Below, one piece after another: positions 13,294 to 19,917 of a DNA stretch of 35,376 nt. Origin of the DNA: Actinomycetospora sp. (lineage in GTDB: Bacteria > Actinomycetota > Actinomycetes > Mycobacteriales > Pseudonocardiaceae). The notes beneath the pieces are model-generated. The model was not told the origin of the DNA and made no database searches. It was given only the letters and a program-made list of their open reading frames with translations. Each line of letters opens with the position of its first letter. Within the stretch, counting starts at the first letter, position 1. Both the position numbers and the translations under genes were made by a program. Where the stretch lies: the NCBI GenBank assembly GCA_029266415.1, contig JAQSWW010000011.1:1-35376 (forward strand). The letters run 5' to 3'.

Positions 13294-13983
13294 TCAGCGC
13301 AGCGTCACGGTCACCTCCTCGCGCAGCGAGGCCGTGGCCACCCGCGCGGCGAGGCCCGCGGGCAGGGCGACGACCACGACGGGCGCCGACCCGGCCGTGC
13401 GGTCGGGCGCGGGCAGGACGGCGAGCACCACCGCGCCCGACGCCAGCACCACCGGACCGGGCTCCGCGGCGTCCGGCACGATGACCTCCCCGGAGCCCGT
13501 CCCCCCGGCCCCCACGAGGTCGACGCGCGCGCCGGGGGCGAGCAGGGCGGCGACGCCCGCGTCCGCCAGGCGCACCGGCACCCCGGCCGCGTCCGGCACC
13601 CCGGCGGCAGCGACCGCGGCGGCGGGACCGAGCAGCCGCACGTCGGTGAGCGCCTCCCCGGCCCGCACCCCGCCGACCACCTGGCGCCCGGCGACCCCCG
13701 CCGGGTCGGCGAGAGCCCCGCCCGGCACCGCCTCCGCGGGCAGCATGCGCACGAGCACGTCCGCCGGGGCGAGGGCGACCCCGGGCGCGAGGTCGCGCGC
13801 CGCGACGACCACCGGCGTGCCGGCCGGCGCCACCCCCGGTGCGGCGAGGAGCCCGAGGGCCACGAGCACCAGCAGCCCCGCCGCGGCCCGCCGCAGCGCC
13901 ACCACCCGCCGCCAGCCCGGCGGCGGGAGCCGCCATCGCCGCCGCGCCCGCGTCCCGCGGCCCGGCTCGTCCCGTGCACCCAC
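13294..13983 (-). CDS. SAF-domain protein (CpaB/RcpC-like), single membrane anchor
   Basis: A 229-residue protein with a basic N-terminus, one hydrophobic helix (AAAGLLVLVALGLLAAPGVA) and then a SAF domain (about 55-125: VVVAARDLAPGVALAPADVLV), as in the Flp-pilus protein CpaB and antifreeze-like domains. SAF domains often bind carbohydrate or form outer-face assemblies. No tad/flp pilus genes are nearby, so a pilus role is unproven. The GTG at 13983 follows TAGCGT by 7 bases; an in-frame GTG two codons upstream (13989) is less likely. It is divergent from the DMT transporter gene and convergent with the small gene. Confidence 0.75.
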   Translation of the reverse strand: MGARDEPGRGTRARRRWRLPPPGWRRVVALRRAAAGLLVLVALGLLAAPGVAPAGTPVVVAARDLAPGVALAPADVLVRMLPAEAVPGGALADPAGVAGRQVVGGVRAGEALTDVRLLGPAAAVAAAGVPDAAGVPVRLADAGVAALLAPGARVDLVGAGGTGSGEVIVPDAAEPGPVVLASGAVVLAVLPAPDRTAGSAPVVVVALPAGLAARVATASLREEVTVTLR

Positions 13984-13990
13984 GGCCACG

Positions 13991-14208: not shown

Positions 14209-15111
14209 ATGGCCGTGGTGCTCGTGCTGCTGGCCACCATCGCCAACGCCACGGCCCTCGTCCTGCAGCGCAAGGCCGCGCAGGACAGCGCCCGGGCCCG
14301 CGGGATCAGCGCCGGCACGTTGCGCGACATGGTCCAGCGTCCGGCGTGGCTCGTCGGCACGTCGATCTTCGCGGTGGCCGTCACCCTGCAGGCGATCGCG
14401 CTGAGCCTCGGGTCGATCGCCCTGGTCCAGCCCGTGCTGGTCATGGAGCTGCCGTTCACGCTGCTGCTGGGCTGGTTCGTGCTCGGCGGGGCCCTGCGGC
14501 GCCGCGAGTGGATCGCCGTCGCGATCATGTCGGTCGGGCTCGTCGTCCTGCTCGTGACCCTGCAGCCCAGCGGCGGCGACGCCCTGGGCGCCGGGTGGCT
14601 GGTCTGGGTCCCGGGCACGATCGTCACCCTCGGCCTGCTCGGGCTGACCAGCTCGATCGCCCAGCGCTCACGGCCCGTGGGCCGCGCGGCGTGGTACGGC
14701 ATCGCCGCCGGCATCGGCTCGGGCTTCGTCGCCGTCATCGTCAAGGCGATGACCGAGGCGCTGGCCGAGGGTGGGGTCGGCACGGTCCTGCTGACCTGGC
14801 AGACCTACCTGCTGATCCCCGTCGCGCCGGCCGCGTTCCTCACGCTGCAGCACGCGCTGCGCGCCGGACGGCTGCTCGCGTCGCAGCCGGGCCTGATCCT
14901 GGGCAACCCGCTGCTGTCGTCGTTCTGGGGTGTCGCCCTGCTCGGCGAGGAGGTGAACGGCGGGTTCGCGCTCGTCGGCGGGTTCCTCGGGGCCGTGCTG
15001 ATGACGGTCGGGGTGTTCCTGCTGTCGCGCTCGCCCCTGCTGGCGGCGCAGGAGGGCGGCCCGCGGGACACCTCGGGGTCCGCCGGCTCCGGGCGGCGCC
15101 GCCCGATCTGA
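14209..15111 (+). CDS. DMT-superfamily transporter (EamA/NIPA-like)
   Basis: A 300-residue polytopic membrane protein with about nine hydrophobic helices in two internally similar halves, starting directly with a helix (MAVVLVLLATIANATALVLQ). The order and the segments LGSIALVQPVLVMELPFTLLLG and LSSFWGVALLGEEVNGG fit actinobacterial drug/metabolite transporters, including those compared with NIPA magnesium transporters. The substrate is unknown. The hydrophilic C-terminal tail (about 25 residues) is Gly/Ser/Arg-rich and probably cytoplasmic. It converges on ruc, and a long hairpin at 15253-15289 separates them. No convincing ribosome-binding site precedes the ATG. Confidence 0.85.
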   Translation: MAVVLVLLATIANATALVLQRKAAQDSARARGISAGTLRDMVQRPAWLVGTSIFAVAVTLQAIALSLGSIALVQPVLVMELPFTLLLGWFVLGGALRRREWIAVAIMSVGLVVLLVTLQPSGGDALGAGWLVWVPGTIVTLGLLGLTSSIAQRSRPVGRAAWYGIAAGIGSGFVAVIVKAMTEALAEGGVGTVLLTWQTYLLIPVAPAAFLTLQHALRAGRLLASQPGLILGNPLLSSFWGVALLGEEVNGGFALVGGFLGAVLMTVGVFLLSRSPLLAAQEGGPRDTSGSAGSGRRRPI

Positions 15112-15252
15112 CCGCCGCCCCGGTATCCGAAACCCGCGGGGCGTCACTCGTCCCGGTGAGGTCGTCGAGAAGCCGCAACCACCCGGCCCCGGGACCGTCA
15201 ATCAGGGTGCGAGGAACGGTGCCGGCCGCTGGGGAGCGGGTGGGCACCGCAC

Positions 15253-15289
15253 GGTCCGGGATGCCGGCTCGGGGTCGGCGTCCCGGACC
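15253..15289. terminator. 14-bp hairpin terminator between DMT and ruc
   Basis: GGTCCGGGATGCCG (15253-15266) pairs with CGGCGTCCCGGACC (15276-15289) with a single G-U wobble and a 9-base loop, followed by TTCCC. The rest of the 215-bp gap (15112-15326) holds no gene I can support. Confidence 0.8.
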
Positions 15290-15326
15290 TTCCCTCGCGC
15301 CTCCCGCCGTCGGACGGGTCAGGCGC

Positions 15327-15725
15327 TCAGGCCGACTTCGCGGACGTGCCGGACGTGCCGGACGTGCCGGAAGAGCCCGAGGACCCGGAGCCCGAGGACG
15401 CCGCCGCGGACTTGGAGTCGCTCTTCGTGCCGGAGTCGCTCTTCGTGCCGGACCCGCTCGTGGCGCCCGACTCGGTCTTCGTCGCCCCGTCCGAGGAGCC
15501 CGTCGACTCGCCCGACGAGCTCGACGCCTCCGCGGACGAGCCGGCGCCGGCGCGGGCGTCGTTGCGGTAGAAGCCGCTGCCCTTGAACACGATCCCCACC
15601 GACGAGAACACCTTGCGCAGCCGGCCGCCGCACACCGGGCACTCGGTCAGCGACGGGTCGGAGAACGCCTGGACCTGCTCGAAGCGGTGGTCGCAGGCGG
15701 TGCAGGCGTAGGGATAGGTCGGCAC
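15327..15725 (-). CDS. ruc: FmdB-family zinc-ribbon protein, Ruc-like redox-regulated chaperone
   Basis: 132 residues: an N-terminal FmdB/CxxC zinc ribbon with Cys8, Cys11, Cys29 and Cys32 (YACTAC and ECPVCG), then FKGSGFYRND, then a Ser/Gly/Thr/Lys tail of about 75 residues with no predicted fold. It matches M. tuberculosis Rv0991c (Ruc), a chaperone activated by oxidation that has an unstructured C-terminus and works with DnaK; that gene also neighbours the cyclo-ligase gene. The GTG at 15725 has AGGAG 5 bases upstream. Its promoter carries a CIRCE-type operator (15787-15811), so heat-shock control by HrcA is expected. The tail is encoded by short in-frame tandem repeats and is likely to vary in length. 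Confidence 0.88.
   Translation of the reverse strand: MPTYPYACTACDHRFEQVQAFSDPSLTECPVCGGRLRKVFSSVGIVFKGSGFYRNDARAGAGSSAEASSSSGESTGSSDGATKTESGATSGSGTKSDSGTKSDSKSAAASSGSGSSGSSGTSGTSGTSAKSA
15341..15370. repeat. 9-bp tandem repeat CGGACGTGC x3 in the ruc tail
   Basis: Three exact copies of CGGACGTGC plus a partial one, encoding the SGT repeats at the disordered C-terminus. In-frame, so copy changes would only alter tail length. Confidence 0.7.
15415..15450. repeat. 18-bp tandem duplication in the ruc tail
   Basis: GAGTCGCTCTTCGTGCCG occurs twice in direct succession (15415-15432 and 15433-15450), encoding a repeated Gly-Thr-Lys-Ser-Asp-Ser unit. Confidence 0.7.
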
Positions 15726-15778
15726 GTGCACTCCTGATCTCGTCCGCCCCCGGCGAGGGGGTGGTGGTGTCCGGGCGC

Positions 15779-15784
15779 AGTGTA
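15779..15784 (-). promoter_or_regulatory. -10 hexamer TACACT of ruc
   Basis: Minus-strand TACACT about 53 bases before the GTG at 15725. The matching -35 position falls inside the CIRCE element at 15787-15811, so a bound repressor would block polymerase. Confidence 0.6.
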
Positions 15785-15786
15785 GA

Positions 15787-15811
15787 TGGCACTCGCGCCA
15801 CCCGAGTGCCA
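15787..15811. promoter_or_regulatory. CIRCE operator (HrcA binding site)
   Basis: TGGCACTC, 9 bases, GAGTGCCA: a perfect 8+8 dyad with exactly the 9-base spacer of the CIRCE consensus (TTAGCACTC-N9-GAGTGCTAA). Aligned over 18 arm positions, 15 match. It overlaps the -35 region of the ruc promoter. HrcA represses chaperonin genes through this element in many bacteria. Confidence 0.85.
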
Positions 15812-15843
15812 ACGCCGGGAGCGTCACGCCTGTTCCGGGGGCG

Positions 15844-16461
15844 TCAACGGAGCCGGGGGAGCGGGGTGAGGCCGGTCGCGGGGCGCCAGACGGCGTGCAC
15901 GGGGACGTCGTGGGGCTCGGCGGGCAGGGGCCCGGGGACGAGCCCCTCGTCGGCCACGAGGGCGACGAGGCGCGTGTGCGGCCCGGCGAGGGGGAGCGTG
16001 CGGTCGTAGTGCCCGCCGCCGCGGCCCAGGCGCACGCCGTCGTGGTCGACCGCGAGCGCCGGGACGACGACCAGCCCGGCGTCGGCCACGGCGTCCGGGC
16101 CCAGGCGCGGGCCCACCGGCTCGAGCAGCCCGTGGGGGCCGGGGCCGAGGGAGTCCCGACCGGTGAAGGCCGCCCAGTCCAGCGGGGCCGCGCCGACCGT
16201 GACCGGGAGGAGCACCCGGCGGCCCAGCGCGCGGGCGGCGTCGAGCACCGGCAGCGCGCCCTCGGGCGTCGCCCCGGGCTCGCCGCCGACGGCGACGAAC
16301 AGGCAGACCGGGTCGGGCACCCCGTCGAGCACCGCCGGCAGGGCCGCCGCCAGCGCCGCCGCGTCGGCCCGGCGCCGCTCGGGGCTCCGTGCCCGCCGCG
16401 CGGCCAGCAGGGACCGCCGCAGCTCGGCCTTGCCCGGGGTCGGGGTCGGCGGGGAGCTCAC
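15844..16461 (-). CDS. 5-formyltetrahydrofolate cyclo-ligase
   Basis: Cytosolic folate enzyme that converts 5-formyl-THF to 5,10-methenyl-THF with ATP. The 205 residues fit the family. The N-terminal KAELRRSLLAARRA, the middle GPHGLLEP, and the C-terminal DHDGVRLGRGGGHYDRTL (ATP/Mg-binding glycine-rich segment) are diagnostic. The GTG at 16461 overlaps the stop of the upstream uridylyltransferase gene as GTGA, so the two are translationally coupled. In M. tuberculosis the orthologue (Rv0992c) is divergent from galU, so the arrangement here differs. ruc lies downstream on the same strand but has its own CIRCE promoter. Confidence 0.92.
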   Translation of the reverse strand: MSSPPTPTPGKAELRRSLLAARRARSPERRRADAAALAAALPAVLDGVPDPVCLFVAVGGEPGATPEGALPVLDAARALGRRVLLPVTVGAAPLDWAAFTGRDSLGPGPHGLLEPVGPRLGPDAVADAGLVVVPALAVDHDGVRLGRGGGHYDRTLPLAGPHTRLVALVADEGLVPGPLPAEPHDVPVHAVWRPATGLTPLPRLR

Positions 16462-17873
16462 CCCTTCAGGACCTCGTCGTCCTCGACGTGCCGCGGCCCG
16501 CTCACCGTGACCTCGCCCTCCACGCTCACGCGCGCGCCGAAGGTCACGTCGCCCTCCACCGTGAGCGCCGACGCCCGCGCCAGCGACGGGGCGCCGCCGG
16601 CGAAGCGCCGCTCGAAGTCGCCGAGCATCTTGAAGCCGTCGTCGAGCTCGACCACCGGCGCGTCCCCGGTCCACGTCGGCACCATGCGGCCGTCGTCGGC
16701 GAGGTCGTAGAGGTCCGAGCGGGCGACGAGCAGGTCGTCGGTGGTCTTCACCGGTGCGAAGCGGTGGCGCGGCACCTCGAGCGCCCGCGCGCCGGTGATC
16801 GACCCGATCGCCGCGCCCATCGCGGTCTCCAGCTGCAGCACCGGCGTCGAGGACTTGTCGGTCGGGTCGACGGTCTTCCGGTTGACGATCAGCGGCAGGT
16901 ACGGCGCGGCCGGGTCGTCGGCCTGCAGCGCCCGCAGGTGCTCGAGGTCGACCCACAGGTTGTTGGTGTTGAACCAGCTGAAGCGCTCGATGTCGGTGAA
17001 CGAGTCGTCGCCCTCGGGCACCTGGGCGGTTTCGCGCAGCACCAGCGCCCCGTCGCCGTCTCCGTGGTCGAGCTCCCCTCTCGGCGTGCTCCCCCCATCG
17101 CTCCGTCTCCGGGCCGCGAGGTGCCCGCCCTTGCGGTCCATCGGCGTCCGGCGCGCCACCTCGAGGGCGAAGGGCACCTCCTGCGCGACGACCCAGGCCG
17201 CCACGCGCACGTCGGGCACCGCGCCGAGGTTGTCGGAGTTCGACACGAACGCCCACCGCACGCCGGCCGCGAGCAGCCGCTCCAGCGCGCCGGACGCGGC
17301 GAGCGCGGTGTAGAGGTCGCCGTGCCCGGGCGGACACCACTCGAGGCGCGGGTCGGCGGGCCACGACACCGGCTCCCACGTGTCGGCGCGCAGCTTGGGC
17401 TCGGAGCCCTGCAGGAAGTCCAGGGGCAGCTCCGGGTCCTCGAGGCCCTCGTGGCGCCGCAGCGCCGCCAGCGACGGCTCGCGGGTGCCCTCGGAGTCCA
17501 TGAGCAGCAGCGGCAGCCGCGCGCCGTGGCGCTCGCGCAGCGCGAGGGTCTGGCGGGCGACGGCGTCGAGGAAGCTCGTGCCCGGCTTGATCTCCAGCAG
17601 CGACTTGGGCCCGTCGAGCCCCATGCTCGTGCCCAGCCCGCCGTTGAGCTTGATCACCGCAAGCCGGTCCAGGGCGTCGCGGGCGGCCTCGTCGGAGGGC
17701 TCGTCGAGGGCGTCCAGACTCGGCAGGTCGGGCACCGGCTCCAGTGCGTCGCCGGGCAGCACGGCGCTGTCCGGCTCGGCGAGCTGCTCGAGGCGCCGGC
17801 GGAACGCCTCCACCTCGGCCGGGTGCGCGTCCCGCTCGGTCAGGGCGGCCAGGGCGGCGTCGACGTAGGACAT
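16458..17873 (-). CDS. UTP-glucose-1-phosphate uridylyltransferase, eukaryote type (UDPGP family)
   Basis: Makes UDP-glucose from UTP and glucose-1-phosphate. The 471-residue length and the motifs VIKLNGGLGTSMGLDGPKS (74-91), FVSNSDNLGA, ETAQVPEGD and FNTNNLWVDL, with a C-terminal beta-helix (about 420-465), belong to the eukaryotic UGP2-like family and not to bacterial GalU of about 300 residues. It occupies the galU position of M. tuberculosis (between the Rv0992c and moeA orthologues) but on the opposite strand. A loop insertion of about 15 residues (near 255-270) uses rare AGA codons and coincides with a dispersed repeat. No clear ribosome-binding site precedes ATG 17873. UDP-glucose would feed cell-wall and glycan synthesis. 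Confidence 0.9.
   Translation of the reverse strand: MSYVDAALAALTERDAHPAEVEAFRRRLEQLAEPDSAVLPGDALEPVPDLPSLDALDEPSDEAARDALDRLAVIKLNGGLGTSMGLDGPKSLLEIKPGTSFLDAVARQTLALRERHGARLPLLLMDSEGTREPSLAALRRHEGLEDPELPLDFLQGSEPKLRADTWEPVSWPADPRLEWCPPGHGDLYTALAASGALERLLAAGVRWAFVSNSDNLGAVPDVRVAAWVVAQEVPFALEVARRTPMDRKGGHLAARRRSDGGSTPRGELDHGDGDGALVLRETAQVPEGDDSFTDIERFSWFNTNNLWVDLEHLRALQADDPAAPYLPLIVNRKTVDPTDKSSTPVLQLETAMGAAIGSITGARALEVPRHRFAPVKTTDDLLVARSDLYDLADDGRMVPTWTGDAPVVELDDGFKMLGDFERRFAGGAPSLARASALTVEGDVTFGARVSVEGEVTVSGPRHVEDDEVLKG
17066..17110. repeat. Dispersed repeat copy B inside the UGPase gene
   Basis: Plus-strand GGTCGAGCTC (17066-17075) and CGTCTCC (17104-17110) share their ends with copies at 8302-8330 and 32064-32092. 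The 8-mer CGTCTCCG occurs at 17057-17064 and again at 17104-17111, like a direct repeat flanking an insertion. It encodes a Gly/Asp-rich loop in place of the short turn seen in the family, with two AGA arginine codons that are otherwise rare here. Confidence 0.45.
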
Positions 17874-17986: not shown

Positions 17987-19240
17987 GTGAGGACGGTCGA
18001 GGCTCAGCTGCGTCGCGTGCTCGACGCCGCGGTCCGTCCGGCGCCCGTGCGGGTGGACATCTCCTCCGCCCAGGGACTGCTGTGCGCCGAGGAGGTCGTG
18101 GCCGACCGCGCCCTGCCCGGCTTCGACCAGGCCGCCGTCGACGGCTTCGCGGTGCGCAGCGTCGACGTCCGCGGCGCCGCCGAGGAGCCCGTCGAGCTGC
18201 CGGTGGTCGGCGAGGTCGCGGTCGGCTCGCGGCAGGCGCACCGGCTGCAGCCCGGCCAGGCGGTCCGGGTGGCCACCGGCGCGCCGCTGCCCACGCTCGC
18301 GGACGCCGTCGCCCCCCACGACCACACCGACGCCGCCGACGACCCGGGCAGCCGGGGCACCGGCCACCGCGCGCGCCTGACCGTCAAGACGCCCGTGCCG
18401 TCCGCGGCGTGGGTGCGCCGCGTCGGCGAGGACGTGGCGCCCGGCGACGTCGCCGTGCGCCGCGGCGCGTCCGTCGGCCCCGCCCAGGTCGGGCTGCTCG
18501 CGGCCGTGGGCCGCACCAAGGTGCTCGTGCACCCCCGTCCCCGGGTCTCGGTGATGGCCGTCGGCGACGAGCTGGTCGACCTGGACCGCACGCCGGGCAC
18601 CGGCCAGGTCACCGACGTCAACTCCTACGCGCTGGCCGCGGCCGCCTCCGACGCCGGCGCCGAGGTCACGCGCCTGCCGATCACGTCCACCGAGCCGGCG
18701 GCCCTGCGCGAGGCGGTCGAGTCGGCGCTCGCCCGCTCGGAGATCGTCGTGCTCGCCGGCGGTGTCGGCGGGCGCCTGGGGGAGGACGTCCAGGACGCGC
18801 TGGTCCAGCTCGGGCCCGTCGACGTCTCGCGCGTGGCCATGCACCCCGGCTCCGTGCAGGGCTTCGGCCGCCTGGGTCGCGAGGAGATCCCGACCTTCCT
18901 GCTGCCGGCCAACCCGGTGTCGGCGCTCGTGGTGTTCGAGGTGCTCGTCCGCCCGCTGATCCGCCTGACGCTCGGCAAGCCGGAGTTGCACCGCCGCGAG
19001 GTCACCGCGTCCCTGCTCTCGCCGGTGAGCTCCCCGGCCGGGCGCCGCAGCTACGTGCGCGGGCGCCTGCTGCGCGACCGGCGCACCGGCGACTACCTGG
19101 CCCAGCCGCTGGGCAACTCGGGCGACCACCTGCTCTCGTCGCTGGCCGAGGCCAACGCGCTGATCGTGCTCGACGAGGACACGACCGAGGCGGGCATGGA
19201 CGCCGCCGTGCGCGTGTCGTTCCTCGCCCCGCGCACCTGA
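17987..19240 (+). CDS. moeA: MoeA/gephyrin-like protein (Glp), cell-division-associated paralogue
   Basis: 417 residues with MoeA architecture: an N-terminal domain with PGFDQAAVDGFAVRS, the MPT-binding domain with VSVMAVGDELVD and TDVNSYAL, and domain IV. Several catalytic motifs of true MoeA have changed: GGVSVG-like is GGVGGRLGED, KPGKP-like is HPGSVQ, and GLPGNPVS is LLPANPVS. It is followed by rimJ and sepX/glpR. In Corynebacterium a gephyrin-like Glp binds FtsZ and the membrane receptor GlpR, so I favour that role over molybdenum insertion, or both. GTG 17987 has AGGAG 9 bases before it; an ATG at 17970 soon meets a stop. The rimJ GTG follows after 5 bases. Confidence 0.9.
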   Translation: MRTVEAQLRRVLDAAVRPAPVRVDISSAQGLLCAEEVVADRALPGFDQAAVDGFAVRSVDVRGAAEEPVELPVVGEVAVGSRQAHRLQPGQAVRVATGAPLPTLADAVAPHDHTDAADDPGSRGTGHRARLTVKTPVPSAAWVRRVGEDVAPGDVAVRRGASVGPAQVGLLAAVGRTKVLVHPRPRVSVMAVGDELVDLDRTPGTGQVTDVNSYALAAAASDAGAEVTRLPITSTEPAALREAVESALARSEIVVLAGGVGGRLGEDVQDALVQLGPVDVSRVAMHPGSVQGFGRLGREEIPTFLLPANPVSALVVFEVLVRPLIRLTLGKPELHRREVTASLLSPVSSPAGRRSYVRGRLLRDRRTGDYLAQPLGNSGDHLLSSLAEANALIVLDEDTTEAGMDAAVRVSFLAPRT

Positions 19241-19245
19241 CCCGC

Positions 19246-19917
19246 GTGTCCGGCTCCCCGTGGGGCGGGGCCCGGCCGACCGGGCGGCACCCGGGCTGGC
19301 CCGCGCGAACCCGCGCCCTGCGGGTGCCCGCCGGCGTCGTGGAGCTGCGCCCGATCCGCCTGCGCGACGGCGGCGCCTGGGCGCGCATCCGCCGCCGTGA
19401 CGAGGAGCACCTCGCGCCGTGGGAGCCGACGCTGCCCGGGCCGTGGGCCGACCGCAACGCGCTGGCCGAGTGGCCGGCGCGGTGGAGCGCGCTGCGCTCG
19501 ATGGGACGCGCCGGCCAGGCGCTGCCCTTCGCCCTGCTCGTCGACGGCGAGTTCGCGGGGCAGGTCGTGATCGGCAACGTCGTGCGCGAGCCGCTGCTGT
19601 CGGCGTACGTCGGCTACTGGGTCGGCGCGCACGTCGCGGGGGGCGGCGCGGCGACCGCCGCCGTCGCCCTGGCCGTCGACCACTGCTTCTCCCGCGTCGG
19701 CCTGCACCGCATCGAGGCGACGGTGCGGCCCGAGAACGTGCGCAGCCTCCGGGTGCTCGCCAAGCTCGGGTTCCGCGAGGAGGGCCTGCTGCGCCGCTAC
19801 CTCGAGGTCGACGGTGACTGGCGCGACCACCTCGTCCTGGCCGTGACCACGGAGGACGTCCTGCCGGACGGTCTGGTCGCGCGGCTGCTGCGAACAGGCG
19901 GGGCCGAGCGCGCATGA
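19246..19917 (+). CDS. rimJ: GNAT N-acetyltransferase RimJ-like
   Basis: 223-residue GCN5-type acetyltransferase of the RimJ/RimL group, which acetylate protein N-termini such as ribosomal protein S5. After a short Pro/Gly/Arg-rich start come VELRPIRLRDGGAWARIRRRDEEHLAPWEP, the acetyl-CoA region YVGYWVGAHVAGGGAAT, LHRIEATVRPENVRSLRVLAKLGF, and EEGLLRRYLEVDGDWRDH, as in M. tuberculosis Rv0995. The GTG at 19246 begins 5 bases after the moeA/glp stop without a separate ribosome-binding site, implying coupled translation. In this conserved operon it sits between glp and glpR, but whether it acts in division is unknown. Confidence 0.92.
   Translation: MSGSPWGGARPTGRHPGWPARTRALRVPAGVVELRPIRLRDGGAWARIRRRDEEHLAPWEPTLPGPWADRNALAEWPARWSALRSMGRAGQALPFALLVDGEFAGQVVIGNVVREPLLSAYVGYWVGAHVAGGGAATAAVALAVDHCFSRVGLHRIEATVRPENVRSLRVLAKLGFREEGLLRRYLEVDGDWRDHLVLAVTTEDVLPDGLVARLLRTGGAERA

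Follow-up and report, generated by a model that had tools for sequence, protein, structure and literature searches.

Here we identified an exact CIRCE operator, the predicted site of the repressor HrcA, in front of the ruc gene of Actinomycetospora sp., where it begins on the -10 element of a predicted SigH/SigR promoter. The window, the whole stretch of DNA that was analysed, is 35,376 nucleotides long. It is very probable that ruc is the gene of a redox-activated chaperone in the HrcA regulon, together with groES and groEL, and that its SigH/SigR promoter is blocked by HrcA. As long as cells are unstressed, the CIRCE dyad would be occupied by an HrcA dimer that covers the -10 edge and the start-site region and keeps ruc off. 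Heat or misfolding would cause active HrcA to be lost, thiol oxidation would release SigH/SigR from RsrA, and SigH-RNA polymerase would read GGAACA-N17-GTT, whose -10 touches the operator. The sequence elements, their positions and conservation, and the presence of hrcA, sigH/sigR, and rsrA are observations made on the DNA itself. Binding, repression, activation, and chaperone activity would be expected in Actinomycetospora sp. by analogy with M. tuberculosis and from general knowledge of HrcA and RsrA. The features of the locus are:

13294-13989, minus strand: SAF-domain gene, beyond the 14209-15111 frame as seen from ruc
14209-15111, plus strand: 300-aa frame convergent to ruc, between ruc and the SAF-domain gene, no Pfam match
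15327..15725, minus strand: ruc/fmdB, 132-aa zinc-ribbon protein with Cys 8, 11, 29, and 32 and a Ser/Gly-rich tail (profile matches, alignment)
15731..15735, minus strand: ribosome binding site AGGAG, 5 nt upstream of the GTG start
15779..15784, minus strand: TACACT, the -10 of the initial annotation; could at most serve a second promoter and is not common to relatives
15787..15811, no strand assigned: predicted HrcA site, CIRCE operator TGGCACTC-N9-GAGTGCCA, exact match, with the core GCACTC-N9-GAGTGC at 15789-15809
15811..15813, minus strand: predicted SigH/SigR -10 element GTT, its last T being the first base of the 25-bp dyad
15831..15836, minus strand: predicted SigH/SigR -35 element GGAACA, fitting the published consensus GGAAYR-N17-GTT
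15844..16458, minus strand: 5-formyltetrahydrofolate cyclo-ligase, the gene upstream of ruc (PF01812, TIGR02727), with a provisional start
16458..17873, minus strand: galU-type UTP-glucose-1-phosphate uridylyltransferase (PF01704)
17987..19240, plus strand: moeA, divergent neighbour (PF03453, PF00994, PF03454)
19237..19917, plus strand: GNAT acetyltransferase (PF13302), presumably rimJ-like

The protein had been proposed to be a Ruc/FmdB homolog, and this identity holds. It matches TIGR02605, the FmdB zinc-ribbon model, at 73.5 bits and PF09723 (Zn_ribbon_8) at 51.7 bits, and it has the four Ruc cysteines, which make up an N-terminal CxxC..CxxC zinc ribbon and are invariant across 19 aligned sequences. 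The tail is Ser/Gly-rich by composition, as read from the translation, and short repeats at 15405-15460 of the window code part of it as Ser-Gly-Thr-Lys-Ser-Asp units. The start is likely the GTG at 15725. The closest named relatives of the protein are from the Pseudonocardiaceae, the best with 86% identity over 56 residues. The order of the cyclo-ligase, galU, moeA, and acetyltransferase genes is one that we take to be the order around Rv0991c (ruc) in M. tuberculosis. The M. tuberculosis gene heads an operon with rv0990c, according to the available part of PMC8557902. Unlike this operon, the next long frame in the window is the convergent plus-strand one at 14209-15111; judged by its letters, its product has the look of a multi-helix membrane protein.

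Much of this circuit has a precedent. The available sections of Becker et al. 2020 (PMC7448276) describe M. tuberculosis ruc as directly repressed by HrcA along with three Hsp60/Hsp10 genes, as induced by SigH from a site that overlaps the HrcA site, and as the gene of a heat-induced protein with oxidation-dependent chaperone activity. The Ruc mutants there carry the cysteine numbering 8, 11, 29, 32, taken from primer names, and the same HrcA regulon is repeated in the accessible parts of PMC8557902 and PMC8223512. Rv0991c is 40.3-fold SigH-dependent in the portion of PMC4803200 at hand, which also gives the M. tuberculosis SigH consensus GGAAYR-N17-GTT from ChIP-seq and 5'-RACE. The locus in the window resembles Rv0991c in its zinc-ribbon protein with cysteines at these four positions and in an HrcA operator placed at a SigH-type -10. 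For ruc, both repression by HrcA and activation by SigH are already known in one species, M. tuberculosis. Stewart et al. 2002 is reportedly cited for the M. tuberculosis ruc promoter, with an HrcA site overlapping the SigH site. HrcA control of Ruc is not newly suggested by this locus, direct repression being published for M. tuberculosis, and the central claim of the initial annotation is an extension of a known circuit since its mechanism was published for that species. What seems to be new is how widely the circuit occurs, together with the fixed place of the operator at a -10 whose sigma type changes from lineage to lineage.

The literature survey covered a collection of open-access papers. 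Within it, no paper was found that joins FmdB to HrcA (with or without CIRCE), to SigR, or to heat shock in combination with Streptomyces, and the combination of HrcA, zinc ribbon, and actinobacteria gave Becker et al. as its single match. The word "FmdB" is absent from the main texts of PMC3489674 and PMC9205884, as far as these are available.

The CIRCE dyad reported on this gene was confirmed as an exact match, and it is the sole match to TGGCACTC-N9-GAGTGCCA in the 35,376 bases with up to three mismatches tolerated. At the same tolerance, shuffled windows had a mean of 0.14 matches, and 13 of 100 shuffles had any match. We also determined that the exact core is present in four copies in the draft genome (4.73 Mb, 306 contigs, 84.5% complete), with 0 copies of the reversed control. 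Two of these lie in tandem upstream of groEL, one upstream of groES, and one upstream of ruc, so the dyad that was to be sought at groES and groEL is present at both; all share the core dyad and the N9 spacing within the same genome. The tandem groEL dyads are 34 bp apart (L001 1501-1555, G000:C253), and groES has a single dyad. Unlike ruc, the groES promoter reads TTGATG-N18-TAGAGT, with its -10 in the right arm, and is not SigH-type. A single copy of hrcA (PF01628, 187.5 bits) is present in the genome, as the initial annotation presumed. The dyad was also to be sought at hrcA itself: the CIRCE scan of the locus gave only matches with 2-3 mismatches, 6 against a shuffle mean of 3.9, and hrcA is without an operator above chance in this genome.

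An inverted repeat between the cyclo-ligase stop codon and the ruc start could instead form a hairpin that terminates or attenuates transcription of the folate gene upstream. We consider this extremely improbable, as the same arms occur with another N9 loop before groES and groEL, the arms are conserved and the loop is free across genera in the upstream-region comparison, and no terminator-like site was found in the scan, which led us to reject the terminator reading. The 73-nt leader RNA (15804-15732) folds no better than shuffles, with a z of -0.28.

On the minus strand, GGAACA (15836-15831) and GTT (15813-15811) are separated by 17 nt and match the SigH consensus. The predicted -35 lies 7 bp from the cyclo-ligase stop codon. 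GTT ends in the base with which the dyad begins, and transcription would thus start inside the operator. The SigH_actino profile has one match over the cut-off in the genome (341 bits, with 20 weaker matches below it), and an RsrA match of 99.8 bits is located 68 bp downstream on the same strand. Like SigH/SigR-RsrA thiol-stress promoters, the ruc promoter follows GGAAYR-N17-GTT; unlike the others, it is coupled to a heat-shock repressor site, and the strict composite of the two occurs only at ruc, in 20 genomes.

The initial annotation placed the dyad over the -35 region, with TACACT as the -10. This layout is probably wrong, and a SigH/SigR-type promoter appears to fit the sequence better. 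No sigma-70 hexamer pair passes a consensus scan of 15200-15950, and the +34 end position of TACACT, counted from the dyad start, is absent from the offsets at which TANNNT boxes end in at least 4% of the compared regions. We rejected a vegetative promoter with the dyad over its -35, as the scan left it without any passing hexamer pair. It is unlikely, then, that the operator works on a SigA-type promoter of this layout and that GGAACA-N17-GTT is fortuitous, even though TACACT is present at 15779-15784, TACAC(T) is found 3' of the dyad in four Gordonia or Gordonia-like loci, and two start sites are mentioned for M. tuberculosis ruc in the available sections of PMC7448276. Besides the missing hexamer pair and an offset that is not common to relatives, the composite SigH element speaks against such a promoter, since each of the 20 genomes holding this element has it solely upstream of ruc. 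Given the Gordonia loci, a second promoter of that layout may nevertheless be present in the window.

These 20 genomes are among 148 of the window's class, with one copy of the composite pattern each and 0 control matches, and all 20 copies are directly upstream of ruc. They belong to 4 of 71 genera: that of the window and genera that are Mycobacterium-like, Nocardia/Rhodococcus-like, and Streptomyces-like, the latter names being deduced from matching named promoters. As judged from these patterns, double control is specific to ruc and is not general in the class, since the strict composite is missing in 128 of the 148 genomes. A sister genus of the same family (L007) has the operator, and GGAAY-N18-GTT is absent there.

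We next consider the conservation of the operator, which was surveyed in Actinomycetota genomes. A 56-residue ruc query matched 367 of 396 genomes at least once, although weak matches may be other FmdB-type proteins. The ruc loci were taken from the best matches listed, and 400 bp upstream of each was compared (319 bp for one). The 190 loci comprise 110 in a first set (30 best matches and 80 further ones, of which 68 are mainly one per genus and 12 are within-genus repeats) and 80 named loci, which are the 80 best matches and thus lean to close relatives. With 11-12 of 12 core bases matched, 119 of the 190 upstream regions hold the operator (46/110 in the first set and 73/80 in the named set), well beyond mycobacteria, as the proposed alignment of orthologues was meant to reveal. 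The best score per region is bimodal: the 71 regions below 11 consist of 2 at 10 and 69 at 7-9. Scores of at least 11 were reached by 5 of 1900 dinucleotide shuffles and by 5 of 2200 base shuffles of the 110 regions.

The named positives include, as part of the list, Pseudonocardiaceae, Mycobacteriaceae, Nocardiaceae, Gordoniaceae, Streptomycetaceae, and Micromonosporaceae, with Cellulomonadaceae, Nocardioidaceae, Frankiaceae, Jiangellaceae, and Streptosporangiaceae as further families. Within the first set, the operator was scored in 28 of 40 loci from the window's class and in 18 of 70 from other classes, and at least one positive is found in 19/37 families and 31/85 genera. Four families (f9, f11, f17, and f49) have the operator at ruc in 0 of 32 loci (8, 11, 6, and 7, respectively); hrcA is present in 31 of these 32 genomes, the exception being G189. 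Across the phylum sample, hrcA is found in 351/396 genomes and the exact core dyad in 324/396, and the reversed control mostly occurs 0-1 times per genome and up to 4. Two loci on contigs titled Bifidobacterium breve MAG (L171, L182) encode Ruc proteins 68-73% identical to that of the window, possibly from misnamed bins.

Using a midpoint-rooted FastTree RpoB tree of 64 genomes, 27 of them positive, we then asked how the operator is distributed. The tree was drawn from 70 genomes, of which G000 (that of the window), G241, G286, and G092 gave no rpoB and G022 and G037 gave only fragments and were left out; G375 stands for the family of the window. Operator state requires 11 changes on this tree; when the labels were shuffled 500 times, the changes averaged 20.7 and never fell below 14. 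For the ancestor of the window's class, parsimony favours presence with 4 steps versus 6 for absence. The initial claim that Ruc is an ancestral member of the HrcA regulon would therefore stand for the class, where we infer an ancestral operator, and is undecided for the phylum, where the answer from parsimony depends on the cost of a gain. At the midpoint root, equal costs favour absence by 11 versus 13, and a gain at twice the cost of a loss favours presence by 17 versus 18.

HrcA control of ruc may have been gained several times, in the window's class, a second large clade, f18, and f34, rather than being ancestral in the phylum; we hold this to be only slightly less probable than its opposite. 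Several clades between the positive ones are entirely negative, and equal-cost parsimony prefers absence both at the midpoint root and where the second large positive clade begins (4 versus 6). Doubling the gain cost flips both nodes to presence (6 versus 8 for the clade), and the close fit of the trait to the tree, with fewer changes than in any of the shuffles, also speaks against repeated gains. Such gains touch only the word "ancestral" and are compatible with the proposed mechanism.

The SigH-type arrangement at ruc is shared by a part of these relatives. GGAAY-N18-GTT is found at the left edge of the operator in 44 of the 119 positive regions, and the purine of the consensus is present in 42 of these matches. 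GGAAY-to-GTT spacers of 14-22 were counted in the 121 regions with at least 10 core bases: a spacer of 18 accounts for 45 cases, 15 for two, and 19 for one, with a shuffle rate of about 0.07%. Among the 71 regions with fewer than 11 core bases, GGAAYR-N17-GTT occurs in three, in one by a 10-of-12 operator and in another by a broken one. The remaining 75 positives have a TANNNT box ending 1 or 2 nt within the operator in 28 cases, compared with 47 boxes in 6750 cells over every offset; the final T is usually the operator's own, and a fair yardstick is thus the chance frequency of TA five positions upstream of that T, which would be no more than about 1 in 16 in DNA as GC-rich as this. Roughly half of the 75 have no clear -10 of either kind at the operator edge. 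Where they can be recognised by motif, the predicted -10 elements touch the upstream edge of the operator.

The putative sigma type follows lineage, with GTT in Mycobacterium, Nocardia, Rhodococcus, Streptomyces, and some Pseudonocardia, and vegetative-type TANNNT in some others. We tentatively suggest, with belief and doubt nearly balanced and doubt a little ahead, that across Actinomycetota the HrcA operator keeps a fixed place at the downstream edge of the -10 while the sigma factor varies, that Ruc is an old member of the HrcA regulon, and that its oxidative input is a lineage-specific, exchangeable part. Should a single repressor govern groES, groEL, and ruc over a good part of the phylum, Ruc would be a core chaperonin partner to the cell. 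The second, thiol-stress input of the promoter, where present, would fit an oxidation-activated chaperone. The control circuit known from M. tuberculosis would in this way be extended to a good part of the Actinomycetota. In the available sections of PMC7448276, the absence of Ruc from M. tuberculosis causes no strong virulence defect in mice, and oxidative stress is survived under several conditions.

The compared mycobacterial ruc loci, which do not include the M. tuberculosis sequence itself, resemble the window in having GGAAT-N18-GTT followed by the operator. The operator arms are TGGCACTC/GAGTGCCA in the window and TAGCACTT/GAGTGCTA in mycobacteria, and the right arm in the window, unlike the mycobacterial one, is without a TAGAGT box. 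At Mycobacterium-type loci (for example L156, L158, L161), TAGAGT lies within the right arm and resembles a vegetative -10. A TANNNT box is present at offset +22 in 22 of the 44 SigH-type loci. At Mycobacterium-type ruc promoters, a single operator may thus control two start sites.

Other arrangements were also observed. The TACAC(T) of the four Gordonia or Gordonia-like loci (L010, L105, L153, L154) is at approximately +40 and starts about 7-8 nt past a 27-bp extended dyad, in a layout like that of the initial annotation. Micromonosporaceae loci (for example L121, L135, L148) have a conserved block, TGGACGAA ... GATGACGCA, 5' of the operator, which replaces both promoter types. Outside the class, L072 (G250, family f67) has GGAAC-N18-GTT and then an operator whose right arm is seemingly one base short of the consensus; this operator may be decaying while the SigH-type promoter in front of it is retained.
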